Assembly (NCBI RefSeq): GCF_947259545.1
Contig: NZ_CAMYMK010000002.1
Location: 372,001-436,000 of the forward strand
DNA length: 64,000 nt
Source: an uncultured Marinobacter sp.
GTDB lineage: Bacteria > Pseudomonadota > Gammaproteobacteria > Pseudomonadales > Oleiphilaceae
Reading direction: 5' to 3'
The translations under genes were made by a program, and so were the position numbers. The number at the start of each line of letters is the position of its first letter. The stretch's first letter is position 1. The notes under the pieces are model-generated. The model saw only the letters and a list, made by a program, of their open reading frames with translations. It searched no databases and was not told where the DNA came from. Below, in pieces: positions 20,396 through 46,763 of the stretch.

Positions 20396-20505
20396 GGTAA
20401 TCGGAGGGACTCCCTGCCAAAATCGTGCGGAGCCATGGATGGCGGAGCCCGAGCGTACAGGGACGTATTTACAGCGTATTTTGGCAGGGAGTCCCTCCGA
20501 TTACC
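20396..20505. repeat. Hairpin element R1 (28-bp arms, conserved core)
   Basis: The arms 20396-20423 and 20478-20505 are a perfect 28-bp inverted repeat (outer end GGTAATCGGAGGG, inner end TGCCAAAAT). They enclose a 54-nt core that contains a small inner palindrome GCCAT-GG-ATGGC and the stretch GAGCGTACAGGGACGTATT. The same core occurs in elements R2-R4 with different arms. R1 lies between the divergent photolyase and hemN genes. Confidence 0.9.
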
Positions 20506-20607
20506 GGACGGCGGACACCGAGCATCCCCCCAAAGGGTTAGCCAGAATACGCCAGAAGCGGGAGGGTGGTTCAGAATGAAGGTTGATAAAATCCTGAGAT
20601 CGGTGAG

Positions 20608-36947: not shown

Positions 36948-36972
36948 AGCGTGTACCCGTAAACTCTCGAGA

Positions 36973-37080
36973 CTGGCGGGGAACCTCTTTCCAAAACTGT
37001 GCGGAGCCATGGATGGCGGAGCTCAAGCGTCACAGGGACGTGCCGCAAGGAGCGTGTTTTGGAAAGAGGTTCCCCGCCAG
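36973..37080. repeat. Hairpin element R2 (25-bp arms, conserved core)
   Basis: Arms 36973-36997 and 37056-37080 are perfectly complementary over 25 bp (outer end CTGGCGGGG, inner end TTTCCAAAAC). The 58-nt core begins TGTGCGGAGCCATGGATGG and is shared with R1 and, inverted, with R3. It lies between the parvulin gene and dnr. Confidence 0.9.
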
Positions 37081-37091
37081 GCTGCGCACCA

Positions 37092-37139
37092 GAGCCCAAG
37101 CGCCACATGGATGTGCCGCAAGGAGCGTGTTTTGGAAAG
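37092..37139. repeat. Half copy of the hairpin element (R2b)
   Basis: GAGCCCAAGCGCC, then GTGCCGCAAGGAGCGTGTTTTGG and GAAAG, repeat the right half of the R2 core and inner arm, but the left arm is absent and the sequence continues with an unrelated outer arm. It looks like a truncated or rearranged copy placed directly after R2. Confidence 0.75.
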
Positions 37140-37200
37140 TGGTCCCACCCGTAGGCCTGTGCTCCCATGTAAAAGAACAAATAAACAGCCAACCCCTTCT

Positions 37201-40871: not shown

Positions 40872-40927
40872 AAAAAGCAGTAATACGAAACGCAAAACCG
40901 CCATTACCGACAACGGAGTTGGACGTT

Positions 40928-42817
40928 ATGAAAAAGAGAGACGAACTTGGCAAAGAGGCACCGGAAGAAAACGGTCTGAGTCGCCGTAAATTCCTCGGGG
41001 CAACCGCCCTGGCTGGTGCCGTGGGCGCAACGGGGCTCGGCGGCGCGGTCATGTCGCGGGAGTCTTGGGCCGCGGCGGTCAAGGAAGCCAAAAACAAGTA
41101 CCAGGTTGCGCCTGGTGAGCTGGACGAGTACTACGGCTTCTGGAGCGGTGGTCACCAGGGCGAGGTTCGTGTTCTGGGTGTGCCTTCCATGCGTGAGCTG
41201 ATGCGTATTCCGGTTTTCAATGTGGACTCGGCGACCGGCTGGGGTATTACCAACGAAAGTAAGGAAGTTCTGGGTGGTGACCAGCAGTATCTGAACGGTG
41301 ACTGTCACCACCCACACATCTCCATGGAAGACGGGCGCTACGATGGCAAATACCTGTTCATCAACGACAAGGCCAACAGCCGTGTTGCCCGCATCCGTCT
41401 GGATATCATGAAGACGGACAAGATCACCCACATTCCGAACGTACAGGCCATTCACGGACTGCGGCTGCAAAAGGTACCGCGTACCAAGTATGTATTCTGC
41501 AACGCGGAATTTGTGATCCCGCACCCCAATGATGGCAGCGACTACAGCCTGGAAAACAGCTACACCATGTTTACTGCCGTTGATGCGGACACCATGGATG
41601 TGGCCTGGCAGGTAATTGTGGACGGCAACCTGGATAACACCGACGCCGATTACACCGGCAAGTACGCCGCCTCCACCTGTTACAACTCGGAGAAAGCGGT
41701 GGATCTGGCCGGCACCATGCGCAACGACCGGGACTGGGTAGTGGTGTTCAACGTCGAGCGGATTGAAGCCGCAGTCAAGAACGGCGACTTCAAGACCGTT
41801 GGTGACTCCGATGTGCCGGTAGTGGACGGCCGAGCAGACTCGAAGCTGACCCGTTACATTCCGGTTCCGAAGAACCCGCATGGCCTGAATACCTCGCCGG
41901 ACGGCAAATATTTTATTGCCAATGGCAAGTTGTCACCCACCTGCTCCGTAATCCAGATCGACAAGCTGGACGATGTGTTTGATGACAAGATCGAGTTGCG
42001 TGATGCCATCGTGGCGGAGCCGGAACTGGGGCTTGGGCCTCTGCATACCACCTTTGATGGTCGTGGCAACGCTTACACCACACTGTTTATCGACAGTCAG
42101 GTATGCAAGTGGAACATTGCGGACGCTATCAAGAATTACAACGGTGAGAAAACCAACTACATCCGCCAGAAACTGGATGTGCATTATCAGCCCGGCCACA
42201 ACCATGCCTCTCTGACCGAATCCCGCGATGCGGACGGCAAGTGGCTGGTGGTTCTGTCGAAGTTCTCCAAGGACCGTTTCCTGCCGGTTGGCCCGCTGCA
42301 TCCGGAGAACGATCAGCTGATCGATATTTCCGGTGAGGAGATGAAGCTGGTTCACGATGGTCCGACCTATGCGGAGCCCCACGACTGTATTCTGATTCGC
42401 CGTGATCAGATCAAGACGAAGAAGATCTACACTCGTGACGATCCTTCATTCGCCAGTGCCCGGGCGCAGGCTGAGAAGGATGGCATCACTCTGGAGGCTG
42501 CTAACGAGGTCGTCCGTGATGGCAACAAGGTGCGTGTCTACATGACGTCTGTGGCGCCGCAGTACGGGATGACGGAGTTCAAGGTGAAGGAGGGGGATGA
42601 GGTTACGGTATATGTGACCAATCTGGATTCTGTTGAGGATGTGACCCATGGGTTCTGTATGGTGAATCATGGTGTGAGTATGGAGGTCAGTCCCCAGCAG
42701 ACGTCTTCGGTGACCTTTAAGGCAGGTAAGCCGGGGGTTTACTGGTATTACTGCAACTGGTTCTGTCATGCGTTGCACATGGAGATGGGTGGTCGCATGT
42801 TGGTGGAGAAGGCCTGA
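40928..42817 (+). CDS. nosZ: Nitrous oxide reductase NosZ
   Basis: From the ATG at 40928 the protein has 629 residues. A Tat signal ([14 protein letters not shown], twin Arg at 19-20) exports it folded; this is a clade I NosZ. CuZ histidines include DCHHPH, and the CuA site is the C-terminal [12 protein letters not shown] (C-x3-C-x3-H-x2-M). It reduces N2O to N2 in the periplasm. nosD follows, but the two are separated by 226 bp holding hairpin element R3. Confidence 0.97.
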
Positions 42818-42886
42818 CCTTCTTCTGTCTGAACCTGAGTTGGGGCTCGTTATTTGGGCCCCAGCTTTCTGGTTTGGAGAAGCAAA

Positions 42887-42990
42887 CCAAGAGGAGACTG
42901 CTTTCCAAAACACGCTCAAGCCCATCCATGGGGCGCTTGGGCTCCGCCATCCCTGGCTCCGCACAGTTTTGGAAAGCAGTCTCCTCTTGG
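42887..42990. repeat. Hairpin element R3 (25-bp arms, core inverted)
   Basis: Arms 42887-42911 and 42966-42990 are perfectly complementary over 25 bp and continue a further 5 bp with one mismatch. The inner end is TTTCCAAAAC, as in R2. The 54-nt core is in the opposite orientation to R1 and R2; its reverse complement starts TGTGCGGAGCCAGGGATGG. It sits between nosZ and nosD, inside the presumed operon. Confidence 0.9.
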
Positions 42991-43043
42991 CTTGCCGTAC
43001 CTTGGGTGCTGGCCTCTTGTTTTTTATCCGCAGAGAGAAATTG

Positions 43044-44309
43044 ATGTACCAACATTTGCGTTATGGGGTGGCCCTGACAGTCGCTCTGTTATCGCTGACC
43101 GCTCACGCGGACCTGCAAGAACAGCTTGATGCACTGGAACCCGGTGCTGTCATTGAGCTGCCTCCCAAGCAACTTCCGCCGCTGGATTTTCGCGTGCCCG
43201 GTGTCACGGTGTCCTGTCATGCCGATACGGTGATTGACGGTGGCGGTGAGGGAAATGCCGTGGATATTCTGGCGGAGGAGGTGACGTTTTCCGGTTGTGA
43301 GGTTCGCAACTGGGGGGATGATCTGAACGAGTTGGATGCGGGGATTTTTGTGGCGCGGGAGGCCCGTGGTGCTGTAATAGAGAATAACCGTTTGCAGGGG
43401 CCGGCGTTTGGGGTCTGGTTGGATGCAACGAAGGATGTGACGGTTCGGAATAACCAGATTCGTGGGGATGCCGGTATCCGCTCCCAGGATCGGGGGAACG
43501 GGATTCATCTGTTCAATACCACCGGGGCGTTGATCGAGGGCAATGACATCCGTCAGACGCGGGATGCGATTTATATCGAGACTGCGAATAACAACGAGAT
43601 CCGCAACAATCTGATGACGGACCTGCGTTATGGCATTCATTACATGTATTCGATGCATAACCTGCTGGAGGGCAATGTCACCCGGGGGACTCGGACCGGG
43701 TATGCGTTGATGCAGAGTAAGTATCTGACGGTGATCAATAACCGGTCCGAGAATGATGAGAATTACGGCATTCTGATGAATTTCATCACCAACTCCGAGT
43801 TTCGGGGCAATGTGGTCACCGGGGTGTCTCAGGGCGAGACGGCAGGGGTTGCCATTTCCGGGGCCGAGGGCAAGGCGGTGTTTATCTATAACTCGCTGTA
43901 CAACACCTTCGAGAGCAATGTGTTCCGGGACAGCAACATTGGTATTCACCTGACGGCGGGGTCGGAGGACAACGAGGTTTTCAGTAATGCGTTCGTGAAT
44001 AATCAGCGCCAGGTGAAGTATGTGGCGACCCGTACCCAGGAGTGGTCGAAAGAGGGGCGGGGCAATTACTGGAGTGATTATCTGGGGTGGGACCGTAATC
44101 AGGACGGCATTGGCGATGTGGCCTATGAGCCCAATGACAATGTGGACCGGCTGTTGTGGACCTACCCGGAAGCCAAGGTGCTGATGTTCAGCCCGGCGGT
44201 GGATACGTTGCGGTGGGTGCAGGATGCGTTTCCGGTGGTCAAGGCCGCTGGTGTCAGCGATTCGCACCCGTTGATGCGCCCTCCCGAACCGTTACAACCG
44301 GAGTCCTGA
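43044..44309 (+). CDS. nosD: NosD, copper-site maturation protein
   Basis: The ATG at 43044 (RBS GAGAGAAA) gives 421 residues with a signal peptide (ending AHA-D). A longer open frame exists upstream but it reads through R3. The body is a right-handed parallel beta-helix (CASH/carbohydrate-binding repeats such as NNRLQGPAFGVWLDATKDVTVRNN). NosD works in the periplasm with NosF and NosY in assembly of the CuZ centre of NosZ. Its stop overlaps the nosF start (TGATG). Confidence 0.93.
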   Translation: MYQHLRYGVALTVALLSLTAHADLQEQLDALEPGAVIELPPKQLPPLDFRVPGVTVSCHADTVIDGGGEGNAVDILAEEVTFSGCEVRNWGDDLNELDAGIFVAREARGAVIENNRLQGPAFGVWLDATKDVTVRNNQIRGDAGIRSQDRGNGIHLFNTTGALIEGNDIRQTRDAIYIETANNNEIRNNLMTDLRYGIHYMYSMHNLLEGNVTRGTRTGYALMQSKYLTVINNRSENDENYGILMNFITNSEFRGNVVTGVSQGETAGVAISGAEGKAVFIYNSLYNTFESNVFRDSNIGIHLTAGSEDNEVFSNAFVNNQRQVKYVATRTQEWSKEGRGNYWSDYLGWDRNQDGIGDVAYEPNDNVDRLLWTYPEAKVLMFSPAVDTLRWVQDAFPVVKAAGVSDSHPLMRPPEPLQPES

Positions 44310-45241
44310 TGAGCTGTTTCCGTCTTGAGAATGTGAGTTACCGTTATGATAAGGCCCTGGTATTGCGGGGGGTGGATCTTCGCCTGGAGCCCGGGGAGAT
44401 TCTTGGGCTGTTTGGCCATAACGGGGCAGGCAAAACCACCAGCATCAAGCTGATCCTGGGGCTGATGACGCCGACGCAGGGCAAGGTGTCTGTGCTTGGT
44501 GGTGAAGCGGGTGAGCCTCAGGTCAGTCAACACATTGGTTATCTGCCGGAAAATGTGATGTTTTACCCGCAGTTGACCGGTCGCGAGATCCTCAACCATT
44601 TTGCCCGCCTCAAGGGGGCCTCGCTGGCACAGGTGCCCGAGCTGCTGGAGCAGGTGGGGCTTGGCGATGCCATGAATGCGCGGGTGAAGACGTACTCCAA
44701 AGGTATGCGCCAGCGTCTGGGGCTGGCTCAGGCGCTTCTGGGCAAACCGAAGCTGCTGATGCTGGATGAGCCTACCGTGGGACTCGACCCGGTGGCGACG
44801 GCGGATCTATACCGGTTGCTACGTAGGTTGCGGGATGAGGGCACGGCGATTGTGCTTTGCTCCCACGTGCTGCCCGGGGTTGAGCCCTATATCGACCGGG
44901 CAGCGATTCTCACCGAAGGCGCAGTGCAGGCGGTGGGTGATCTGGCGTCCCTGCGACGGCAGGCAAACATGGCTGTGACTCTGTCCATCGAACCCGCCAA
45001 CGGGGTGTCCGCCCTGGAAAAGGTGATTGCCAACGCGTCAGCGGGAAACGGCTTAATGACCCATGACAGTAACGGGCGGCTGCGCGTGGATGTTCGCCCC
45101 TCGGAGAAAATGGCGATGATCCAGACGTTGCTGGATTCGGGGGAGGTTGGGGATCTGGGGATTCATCAGCCGACTCTCGAGGATATCTATGTGCACTTTA
45201 TCGGTTCCGGTGGCCTGGCTCACCGAGGGGGCAGCCAGTGA
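44309..45241 (+). CDS. nosF: NosF, ABC-type ATPase for NosZ maturation
   Basis: The 310-residue ATPase has Walker A GHNGAGKTT near residue 36, signature YSKGMRQRLGLAQALLG, Walker B LLMLDEPTVGLDP and H-loop CSHVL. It energises the NosFY complex that delivers the sulfur-containing component or otherwise drives NosD during CuZ assembly. It overlaps nosD by 1 bp and nosY by 4 bp. Confidence 0.94.
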   Translation: MSCFRLENVSYRYDKALVLRGVDLRLEPGEILGLFGHNGAGKTTSIKLILGLMTPTQGKVSVLGGEAGEPQVSQHIGYLPENVMFYPQLTGREILNHFARLKGASLAQVPELLEQVGLGDAMNARVKTYSKGMRQRLGLAQALLGKPKLLMLDEPTVGLDPVATADLYRLLRRLRDEGTAIVLCSHVLPGVEPYIDRAAILTEGAVQAVGDLASLRRQANMAVTLSIEPANGVSALEKVIANASAGNGLMTHDSNGRLRVDVRPSEKMAMIQTLLDSGEVGDLGIHQPTLEDIYVHFIGSGGLAHRGGSQ

Positions 45242-46068
45242 ACAGTATCTGGACCATAGCCCGCAAGGAGTTCAGCGACAGCCTGAGAAATCGTTGGTTG
45301 ATGGCCATTGCCCTGGTGTTTGCCGTGCTGGCCCTGGGTATAGCCTGGTTTGGCGCAGCGGCATCCGGGCAGGTGGGGTACGCCTCCACCCCGGCCACCA
45401 TTGCCAGTCTGGCCAGCCTGGGCATTTTCCTGATTCCGCTGATTGCGCTGTTGCTGTCCTACGACGCGATTGTGGGCGAAGAAGAGGGCGGCACGCTGCT
45501 CCTGTTATTGACCTACCCACTGAGTCGCGGGCAGTTGCTGTTCGGCAAGTTCCTCGGGCATGGGCTGACATTGGCGCTCGCCACGCTGATCGGGTTTGGT
45601 GTTGCTGGCGTTGCCATTGCTGTGCTGGTCGATGACGTGGTCATAGGAACGCTGGCGGTCGCCATGTTCCGGTTTGTGCTTTCCACCATTCTGTTGGGCT
45701 GGGGATTCATTGCGCTGGCTTACCTGATCAGCGTTCGTGTCAGTGAAAAGCCCGTCGCTGCCGGTCTGGCTCTGGGGGTCTGGTTCTTCTTTGTGCTGAT
45801 CTTTGACCTGATGCTGTTGGGCACGCTGGTGGCCAGCGAGGGCAAGATGAACCCCGAGCTGCTGCCCTGGCTGCTGATGCTCAACCCCACCGACATATAC
45901 CGCCTGCTCAACATCGTTGCCTTCGGCGATGGGGGTCAGTTAAGCGGCGTTCTGAGCCTGGGTGCGGACCTTCCCATTAGCGCGGGCGGGCTGTGGTTCG
46001 CCCTGGCGCTCTGGTGTGTTATCCCCCTGGCAGGCGCCTGGGCCCTGTTCCGTCGCCGTCGAATCTGA
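45238..46068 (+). CDS. nosY: NosY, ABC-type permease for NosZ maturation
   Basis: The 276-residue protein starts with GTG inside the nosF stop (GTGA) and has six hydrophobic helices. The N-terminus IARKEFSDSLRNRW and the EEEGGTLLLLLTYPLSRGQLLFGKFLG loop are standard for ABC-2 permeases of the NosY type. It partners NosF in the inner membrane. Confidence 0.93.
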   Translation: MNSIWTIARKEFSDSLRNRWLMAIALVFAVLALGIAWFGAAASGQVGYASTPATIASLASLGIFLIPLIALLLSYDAIVGEEEGGTLLLLLTYPLSRGQLLFGKFLGHGLTLALATLIGFGVAGVAIAVLVDDVVIGTLAVAMFRFVLSTILLGWGFIALAYLISVRVSEKPVAAGLALGVWFFFVLIFDLMLLGTLVASEGKMNPELLPWLLMLNPTDIYRLLNIVAFGDGGQLSGVLSLGADLPISAGGLWFALALWCVIPLAGAWALFRRRRI

Positions 46069-46081
46069 CCTGGAGATTGTC

Positions 46082-46645
46082 ATGCGTACTGTTCATTTCA
46101 AGGCTTTGTCTGTCATGGCGCTGTTTGCCGTATTCCTGACCGGTTGCTCCGAATCGGAGGAGCAGGTCACAGAAAAGCCCACTCCGGTCCATTTCGAATC
46201 CGGTGACGAATGCCATGTGTGCGGCATGATCATCACCAGTTTCGATGGCCCCAAAGGCCAGGCCATTACCGCCAGGGAACAGCTTACGCGTAAGTTCTGT
46301 TCAACCCGGGACATGTTCTCCTGGGCGTTACAGCCTGAAAATGCAAAACGTGACCACACCCTGTACGTCCACGATATGGCTCAGACAAGTTGGGAAAGTC
46401 CGGACGACACGGCACTGATTGACGCACGTGAAGCCTTCTTTGTGGTCGGGTCAGGGCGAACGGGTGCAATGGGGCCAACCCTGGCTTCATTTGCGTCTGA
46501 AAGTTCAGCGGTAGGGTTCGCCAATGAATTTGGCGGGGAGGTCGTTGAGTTCAAAGATGTGACTATGAAGCACCTGACCCGAGACATGAGCCAGACGATG
46601 TCAGAACACAGCATGGGAATGAACAATCACGAGGGCAAACATTAA
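46082..46645 (+). CDS. nosL: NosL, copper-binding lipoprotein
   Basis: From the ATG at 46082 the protein has 187 residues with a lipobox LTGC (C22), so it is a lipoprotein. The conserved CHVCGM motif (DECHVCGMIITSFDGPKGQA) is the Cu(I) site; further Met/His residues cluster at the C-terminus (MKHLTRDMSQTMSEHSMGMNNH). NosL supplies copper to apo-NosZ. The gap to nosY is 13 bp. Confidence 0.93.
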   Translation: MRTVHFKALSVMALFAVFLTGCSESEEQVTEKPTPVHFESGDECHVCGMIITSFDGPKGQAITAREQLTRKFCSTRDMFSWALQPENAKRDHTLYVHDMAQTSWESPDDTALIDAREAFFVVGSGRTGAMGPTLASFASESSAVGFANEFGGEVVEFKDVTMKHLTRDMSQTMSEHSMGMNNHEGKH

Positions 46646-46655
46646 GGTCGCATAA

Positions 46656-46763
46656 GCCCGGAGGTGGGTGAACCTTCCGGGATCGTCAAAATCATGGATG
46701 ATTTTGTCGAGCGTACAGGGACGTATTCACAGCGTATCCCGGAAGGTTCACCCACCTTCGGGC
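46656..46763. repeat. Hairpin element R4 (28-bp arms, one mismatch)
   Basis: Arms 46656-46683 and 46736-46763 pair at 27 of 28 positions (inner end TTCCGGGAT). The 52-nt core has the right part in common with R1 (GAGCGTACAGGGACGTATT, then CACAGCGT), but its inner palindrome is CAAAATCAT-GG-ATGATTTTG instead of GCCAT-GG-ATGGC. It lies between convergent nosL and moaA and could end transcription from both sides. Confidence 0.9.

Follow-up and report, generated by a model that had tools for sequence, protein, structure and literature searches.

A dispersed Marinobacter hairpin family with a conserved two-loop core and freely varying paired arms, and its probable relation to TwoAYGGAY RNA

Four intergenic elements, R1 to R4, lie in a 64,000-nucleotide stretch of the genome of an uncultured Marinobacter sp. 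(the window), and raise the question of why pairing should be conserved in their arms where sequence is not. A preliminary description had offered two answers: strong selection on a cruciform or RNA structure, or a mechanism such as fold-back replication that creates an inverted copy of local DNA around the core. In an inverted-repeat check of the window, all four elements were found as first described, with conserved cores of 54, 58, 54, and 52 nt between locus-specific self-complementary arms. The features are as follows.

20396..20423, plus strand: R1 left arm, 28 nt, 100% complementary to 20478-20505
20424..20477, plus strand: R1 core, 54 nt, two ANGGAN hairpins, kept in 12 species
20432..20443, plus strand: R1 hairpin 1, GCC-AUGGAU-GGC, loop kept across copies (a figure inflated by the fetch pattern)
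20456..20467, plus strand: R1 hairpin 2, UAC-AGGGAC-GUA, closing C-G kept and two N positions free
20478..20505, plus strand: R1 right arm, forming 28 bp with the left arm, 100% complementary
36970..37083, plus strand: R2, arms 36970-36997 and 37056-37083 (28 nt, 1 mismatch), core 58 nt
37094..37146, plus strand: truncated second copy beside R2, 3' half with hairpin 2, GTTTTGG, and a partial arm; approximate start
42882..42995, minus strand: R3, arms 42882-42911 and 42966-42995 (30 nt, 1 mismatch), core 54 nt
46656..46763, plus strand: R4, arms 46656-46683 and 46736-46763 (27/28 paired), core 52 nt

The pairing first reported held for R1 (28 bp, perfect) and R4 (27/28); in R2 and R3 it is perfect over a narrower stretch (25 bp in R2), with one mismatch each at the full 28 and 30 nt. 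The reported likeness of the inner arm ends applies to R1-R3 (CCAAAAT or CCAAAAC) and not to R4 (CCGGGAT), whose first hairpin has a different stem with the same loop. The truncated copy downstream of R2 was seen as a second inverted pair, 36980-36997 with 37129-37146. R2 is located 22 nt past the stop of a PpiC-type gene and upstream of a Crp/Fnr-type gene. The core of R3 is on the minus strand; the element lies between a nosZ-like and a nosD-like gene, both on the plus strand, and is antisense to nosZ/nosD. R4 follows a nosL-like ORF (45962-46645) by 10 nt and precedes the end of a convergent moaA-like gene by 40 nt. R3 and R4 flank denitrification genes (nosZ, nosD, nosL-like) at 40919-46763 of the window. 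Between R1 and a hemN-like gene, at window positions 20546-20575, the stretch near ATACGCCA...GGGTGGTTCA is similar among the aligned species whether or not they have R1, and is perhaps a regulatory site.

To define the extent of the family, the genome of origin was searched with R1 by BLAST, which yielded 44 matching stretches with E values down to 8e-29, two of them being the R1 arms read backwards. From this genome, 40 stem-bearing rows with different arms were compiled (two copies listed twice). The matches and the rows together show that R1 is not a chance structure. A covariance-model search with a copy count, as the preliminary description had proposed, was then run with a model built from 25 copies of the same genome. 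R1, R2, and R3 were among these copies, so their scores prove nothing; R4, absent from the model set, was recovered at 82.4 bits and an E value of 1.5e-14. At least 85 copies were counted among the listed places of 82 bits or more; the 105 model matches include antisense readings of the palindromes, and only the 85 rows of at least 82 bits were used. In six further genomes of the genus, 143, 105, 29, 3, 3, and 2 copies were found at E ≤ 1e-8, at most 150 candidates being scored per genome. Across the class, a match at E ≤ 1e-4 was present in 67 of 369 genomes and 60 of 272 genera, the genome of origin included. The two-loop core within long, different arms was seen in 17 of 19 inspected loci of other genera; the remaining two (L331 and L332) lacked a long stem by a script that also rewards two GGA loops. 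A 22-base core pattern found at least 115 loci, and Marinobacter accounted for 106 of the 115 named loci listed. The other nine, from Planctomycetota/Kuenenia MAG contigs (L073, L087, L098, L116, L131, L137, L159, L169, and L180), share the 22-base hairpin 1 and have additional hairpins bearing GGA; those that were read also show a short outer stem. They are perhaps a related RNA. The same detector found no long arms in them, and they were rejected as family members, being different if similar in design, and left out of all counts.

Each element consists of a conserved core of 52-58 nt with two ANGGAN hexaloop hairpins, GCC-AUGGAU-GGC and (U/C)AC-ANGGAN-GU(A/G), closed by arms of 25-30 bp that differ between loci. 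The fold noted earlier (GCCAT-GG-ATGGC) is hairpin 1, and the core has two hairpins rather than one. Hairpin 1 is commonly GCGGAGCC-AUGGAU-GGCGGAGC, and hairpin 2 is followed by a short tail, AGCGU. The arms mostly end inward in CCAAAAC/GTTTTGG. Beyond these inner ends they had been called unlike; they do differ by locus, with a weak G-rich consensus on the 5' side. Two weak motifs were found outside the arms of 119 thinned loci: TAACTCCAAAGTTTG on the left, touching the arm, and CACCAAAC, or C(A/T)CCAAAC, on the right, mostly 2-3 nt beyond it. Their log-likelihoods were 104.5 (left) and 109.7 (right) versus 36.9 and 26.4 in shuffled flanks, and simple match limits were passed by 65 and 39 of the 119 loci, respectively. 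No locus-specific pairing was found beyond the arms.

At least two ANGGAN sequences were present in all 75 thinned cores. In the 61 tabulated copies of hairpin 2, the information content was 0.29 bits at N, 0.55 bits at the base after GGA (X), and 1.88 bits at each of the closing C and G, which are kept in 60 of 61 copies each; the hairpins were located by A.GGA., hence the A and the GGA are fixed by the search. A pyrimidine follows the A in 68 of 75 copies of hairpin 1, a figure inflated by the fetch pattern, and in 31 of 61 copies of hairpin 2, where a G precedes GGA in 27 of 61, outside a literal AYGGAY. The conservation of hairpin 1 as a whole is likewise inflated, most loci having been fetched by its sequence. 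Most copies have the layout GC-GGA-GCC...GGC-GGA-GC; others, e.g. R4, have paired bases instead. The GGA triplets beside hairpin 1 were considered as further CsrA sites and dropped, because they stand opposite each other in a stem and are replaced by paired bases elsewhere.

Copies fetched by core sequence alone also pair: among the core matches (L001-L236), only 10 of 192 failed a stem test that required a stem score of 12 or more. Five of the ten (L041 in the genome of origin, L121, L143, L157, and L182) form a long subtype, in which the arms match farther apart around an extra conserved domain entering at hairpin 2. Their arm scores were 22 to 27, compared with 6 to 12 in upstream controls, so arm pairing is kept whatever stands between the arms. 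By eye, the second ANGGA loop appears to be missing from the long subtype. In L144 the partner arm was not seen; the other failures were L016, L071, L102, and L132.

Inheritance was examined at orthologous sites. Of 19 species aligned at the R1 site, taken from among the best matches, 12 have the element there (a twentieth was excluded for an overlong segment). Two of the seven species without R1, G006 and G096, retain a piece of its left arm and have therefore lost the element. Across the 12 species, identity was 95.8% in the core, 76.2% in the outer arms, and 75.0 and 75.1% in the flanks, and the arm cells comprised 334 Watson-Crick pairs, 6 G.U pairs, 1 other pair, and no A.C pair. In 80 kb from each of five relatives, where R2-R4 were assigned as orthologs by their order and flanks, R1, R3, and R4 were present in all five with pairing retained. 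R2 was intact in three; the family-model search gave no match at its site in G063. The copy in G007 (L247 16660-16763) resembles G000, the genome of origin, in its left half and G003 in its right half, with mismatched arms. This chimera looks like the product of recombination through the shared conserved core, of which such an arm mismatch is to be expected. The copies in the window are, on this evidence, old and vertically inherited.

Differences between close orthologs of R1, R3, and R4 were counted for pairs with equal arm length and no more than 5 differences, using 11 of the 12 orthologs for R1 and the inner 27 and 25 positions for R3 and R4. All 31 one-sided differences were steps between a Watson-Crick pair and G.U, which indicates stepwise compensatory change; a further 102 differences affected both sides (all were counted pairwise and not as independent events). 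A G.G mispair in the R3 copy of G024 lies outside the counted positions. The suggested comparison of orthologous loci thus gave arm changes that are compensatory and leave pairing intact. As judged from these alignments, selection keeps the core-strand fold while the arm letters turn over.

The same picture was obtained between paralogs. In an alignment of 25 copies of the genome of origin, 99.8% of the outer-helix cells were paired, and 23 of the 24 pairs carried changes on both sides. Covariation scored 0.607, compared with 0.153 for shuffled alignments and no more than 0.124 for slid controls; a search with the Rfam model RF01731, which favors paired arms, had supplied 20 of these rows. Mispairs were counted with Watson-Crick pairs as the sole matches, so that the method cannot favor wobbles. 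On the core strand of 210 distinct elements, G.U outnumbered A.C by 103 to 10, G.G outnumbered C.C by 12 to 1, and G.A outnumbered C.U by 20 to 4. After thinning to 103 elements, G.U and A.C stood at 49 and 3, and the other two contrasts lost significance. A G.T on one strand is an A.C on the other, so a double-stranded cruciform alone should give both equally often. The cruciform half of the proposed structural selection is ruled out as the sole explanation by this strand bias. The G.U excess points to the core strand, folded as a single strand and most simply as RNA, as the structure under selection. Single-stranded DNA folding would yield the same bias, G.T again outranking A.C, and C-to-T mutation biased toward one strand could contribute to the excess of G.U.

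To identify the family, it was compared with known RNAs. According to Weinberg 2010 (PMC2864571), TwoAYGGAY is a probable RNA of the human gut, Gammaproteobacteria, and Clostridiales and is not cis-regulatory; Rfam types RF01731 as cis-reg. A second source describes tandem G-A in one stem and a predicted binding to CsrA, with validation then in progress (PMC4333381). In the genome of origin, RF01731 gave 44 matches, of which one (44.3 bits) reached the 43-bit cut-off and 43 fell below it. R2 scored 42.3, R3 31.6, and R1 26.1 bits; R4 was unmatched, and there was no match at the gathering threshold within the window. By eye, 43 of the 44 matches are among the listed places of the family model, and one (C6:29518) is not. 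Matches occurred in only one of 14 control genomes, none above the cut-off, and at 3 of the 17 loci scanned in other genera, one above it.

Like TwoAYGGAY, the family has a closing outer stem of poorly conserved sequence, two GGA-loop hairpins, and GGA opposite GGA in most first-hairpin stems. It differs in its second loop, which is ANGGAN and often AGGGAC or AGGGAU, in hairpins shorter than those of the 168-position model, in copy numbers of up to 143 per genome, and in having head-to-head close pairs and a long subtype. The high-affinity RsmE site is described as a hexaloop, ANGGAX, that sits immediately on a stem and varies at N and X (PMC4005645), and this arrangement is found in the family. 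Hairpin 2 keeps the positions that RsmE/CsrA would read, and the others vary. ANGGA hexaloops on stems are shared with the CsrA/RsmA-sequestering small RNAs CsrB and RsmZ, but each unit of the family has two sites inside one long stem, and the units are many and dispersed. One csrA gene was found in the genome of origin. RsmZ gave no match above the cut-off there or in the 14 control genomes, and CsrB gave none there and one among the 14 controls; such a result does not prove the absence of either RNA. RsmZ matches at 28.9 and 24 bits were gene ends with terminator-like hairpins and were rejected. A 6S RNA gene is present in the genome of origin at L030 2562-2741 on the minus strand (Rfam RF00013, 94.6 bits). 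We consider the family to be probably a Marinobacter variant of TwoAYGGAY RNA (RF01731), each element being a structured RNA of about 110 nt, or 130-140 nt counting the weak flanking motifs, with candidate CsrA loops.

The gene context was examined with regard to transcription. Core orientation was nearly independent of the neighboring genes (36 copies in the ++ and 39 in the -- setting; 42 versus 30 in another count). This near-even orientation and the antisense position of R3 to nosZ/nosD indicate that many copies are not simply parts of neighboring mRNAs. Promoter-like matches numbered 73 in the sense 5' flank, compared with 70, 88, and 94 in three controls. They cluster at two distances, with 18 and 22 per 15-base bin (orthologs included). 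The one motif recovered upstream was a T-rich word, with a score close to that of the 3' flank. Neither search demonstrated a promoter belonging to the elements.

Close pairs (<800 bp) follow one arrangement, head-to-head with the left copy on the minus strand, the right copy on the plus strand, and the 5' ends facing each other. It was observed in all 33 listed pairs of four genomes (19 of 19 in G000 and G036, from 150 listed places, and 14 of 14 in G007 and G010, from 145) and in 17 of 17 pairs at separately inspected loci, which partly overlap the G000/G036 set. Pairs 800-6000 bp apart among the listed places occurred in all orientations (-+, +-, ++, and --), with counts of 8, 6, 6, and 4 in G000 and G036 and 5, 5, 2, and 7 in G007 and G010. 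Of 20 close pairs, 19 had a gene on both sides, 9 in convergent and 10 in co-directional settings, and the rule is therefore not set by the genes. No shared sequence was found in the close-pair spacers. A shared divergent promoter and an insertion preference are two ideas for the origin of the head-to-head rule.

Could the long stem alone matter, as a passive 3' stabilizer or terminator in neighboring mRNAs that works in either orientation? Copies do lie near gene ends, at a median of 28-45 nt from the stop in convergent and ++ settings, and R2 and R4 are close behind stops as well. Yet a run of at least five T starting within 30 nt of the right arm was present in only 5 of 151 copies, and the bias among mispairs stays with the core strand also where that strand is antisense to both neighbors: the G.U to A.C counts were 19:2 (++), 17:0 (+-), 14:0 (-+), and 16:3 (--) in 152 elements (160 given, six weak stems dropped, and identical ones merged). 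A passive stem also leaves the 95.8% conservation of the R1 core in orthologs unexplained, and we regard this explanation as rather unlikely. Production or maintenance of identical arms by fold-back replication or template switching between them would fit R1 ortholog arms whose length changes (27-30 nt) are matched on both sides, arms that diverge as fast as 100-base flanks, and ortholog differences that are mostly two-sided. It does not account for the excess of G.U over A.C and of G.G over C.C on the core strand, for conserved motifs outside the arms, or for one-sided changes that are all wobble steps. With pairing also ending at the arms, fold-back copying of local DNA as the sole cause, the second of the original answers, was rejected, and we give arm copying as the explanation very little credence; template switching may still add paired changes.

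A mobile hairpin of the REP/REPIN, IS200/IS605-like, or attC-like kind, whose core strand folds as single-stranded DNA and is moved by a recombinase, would explain both dispersal and inverted pairs. The copies are intergenic, dispersed, orientation-free, and present in 2 to 143 per genome, the listed close pairs are without exception head-to-head, and the G.T bias is what such DNA would give. REP families too show mostly head-to-head dimers and common GT pairing, but have stems of 5-13 bp with a GTAG or CGTC tag (PMC3733652). The arms of the family are 25-30 bp long and free in sequence, and its flanks carry the TAACTCCAAAGTTTG and CACCAAAC motifs in place of a terminal GTAG/CGTC. The family is thus like REP/BIME/REPIN in being made of short dispersed intergenic palindromes with inverted close pairs, and the contrast originally drawn with REP/BIME, pairing kept with sequence free, holds for the arms. 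In attC the outer boxes are conserved and the center is variable; here the center is conserved and the arms are variable. A match to a described repeat family with a known transposase had been named as a refuting case, and it is half borne out: RF01731 is a described RNA family, but a search for Y1 transposases (RAYT, Y1_Tnp) gave no matches in the genome of origin (99.33% complete) and was positive in 5 of the 14 control genomes. Plasmid and phage records gave no match to a 67-base query, the pair spacers share no sequence, and 65 listed places on the G036 chromosome, whose origin was not located, showed no clear change of strand along its length. R1, R3, and R4, still paired in five of five relatives, are not what decaying insertions would leave. 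A mobile DNA hairpin is therefore, in our judgment, unlikely.

For the RNA reading, the following mechanism is proposed. The core strand would be transcribed and the RNA would form the long stem, fixing the two loops side by side for one CsrA dimer. The stem would act by pairing alone, holding the loops in place, protecting the RNA, and shielding its ends, which would explain why the arm sequence is free. The dispersed copies may act together as a CsrA-binding reservoir (titration) or as local CsrA sites. Several observations speak against an RNA that binds CsrA: the near-even orientation, the antisense position of R3, the 43 of 44 RF01731 matches below the cut-off with R4 missed, the G before GGA in 27 of 61 second hairpins, the promoter searches that demonstrated none, the apparent loop loss of the long subtype, and the 2-3 copies of some genomes. 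It is only tentatively suggested that about 100 separately transcribed RNA units of two sites each, some of them arranged as divergent head-to-head pairs, titrate or place CsrA chromosome-wide, including beside and antisense to nos genes.

In the mostly open-access literature searched, no account of the family as a dispersed high-copy element in Marinobacter was found, and searches for the core letters or for REP with Marinobacter gave nothing relevant among the listed results. The high and variable copy number (2 to 143), the vertical persistence, the long subtype, and the head-to-head rule for close pairs look new. As a general tool, counting G.U against A.C is a simple way, needing sequence only, to recognize a palindrome in which a single-stranded fold of one strand is maintained. 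TwoAYGGAY has been on record since 2010, and its function is a prediction (PMC2864571 and PMC4333381); within one genus the family ranges from a few to more than 100 copies per genome. With a single csrA gene and this many copies, a single strain offers a large set of natural copies that can be examined together.
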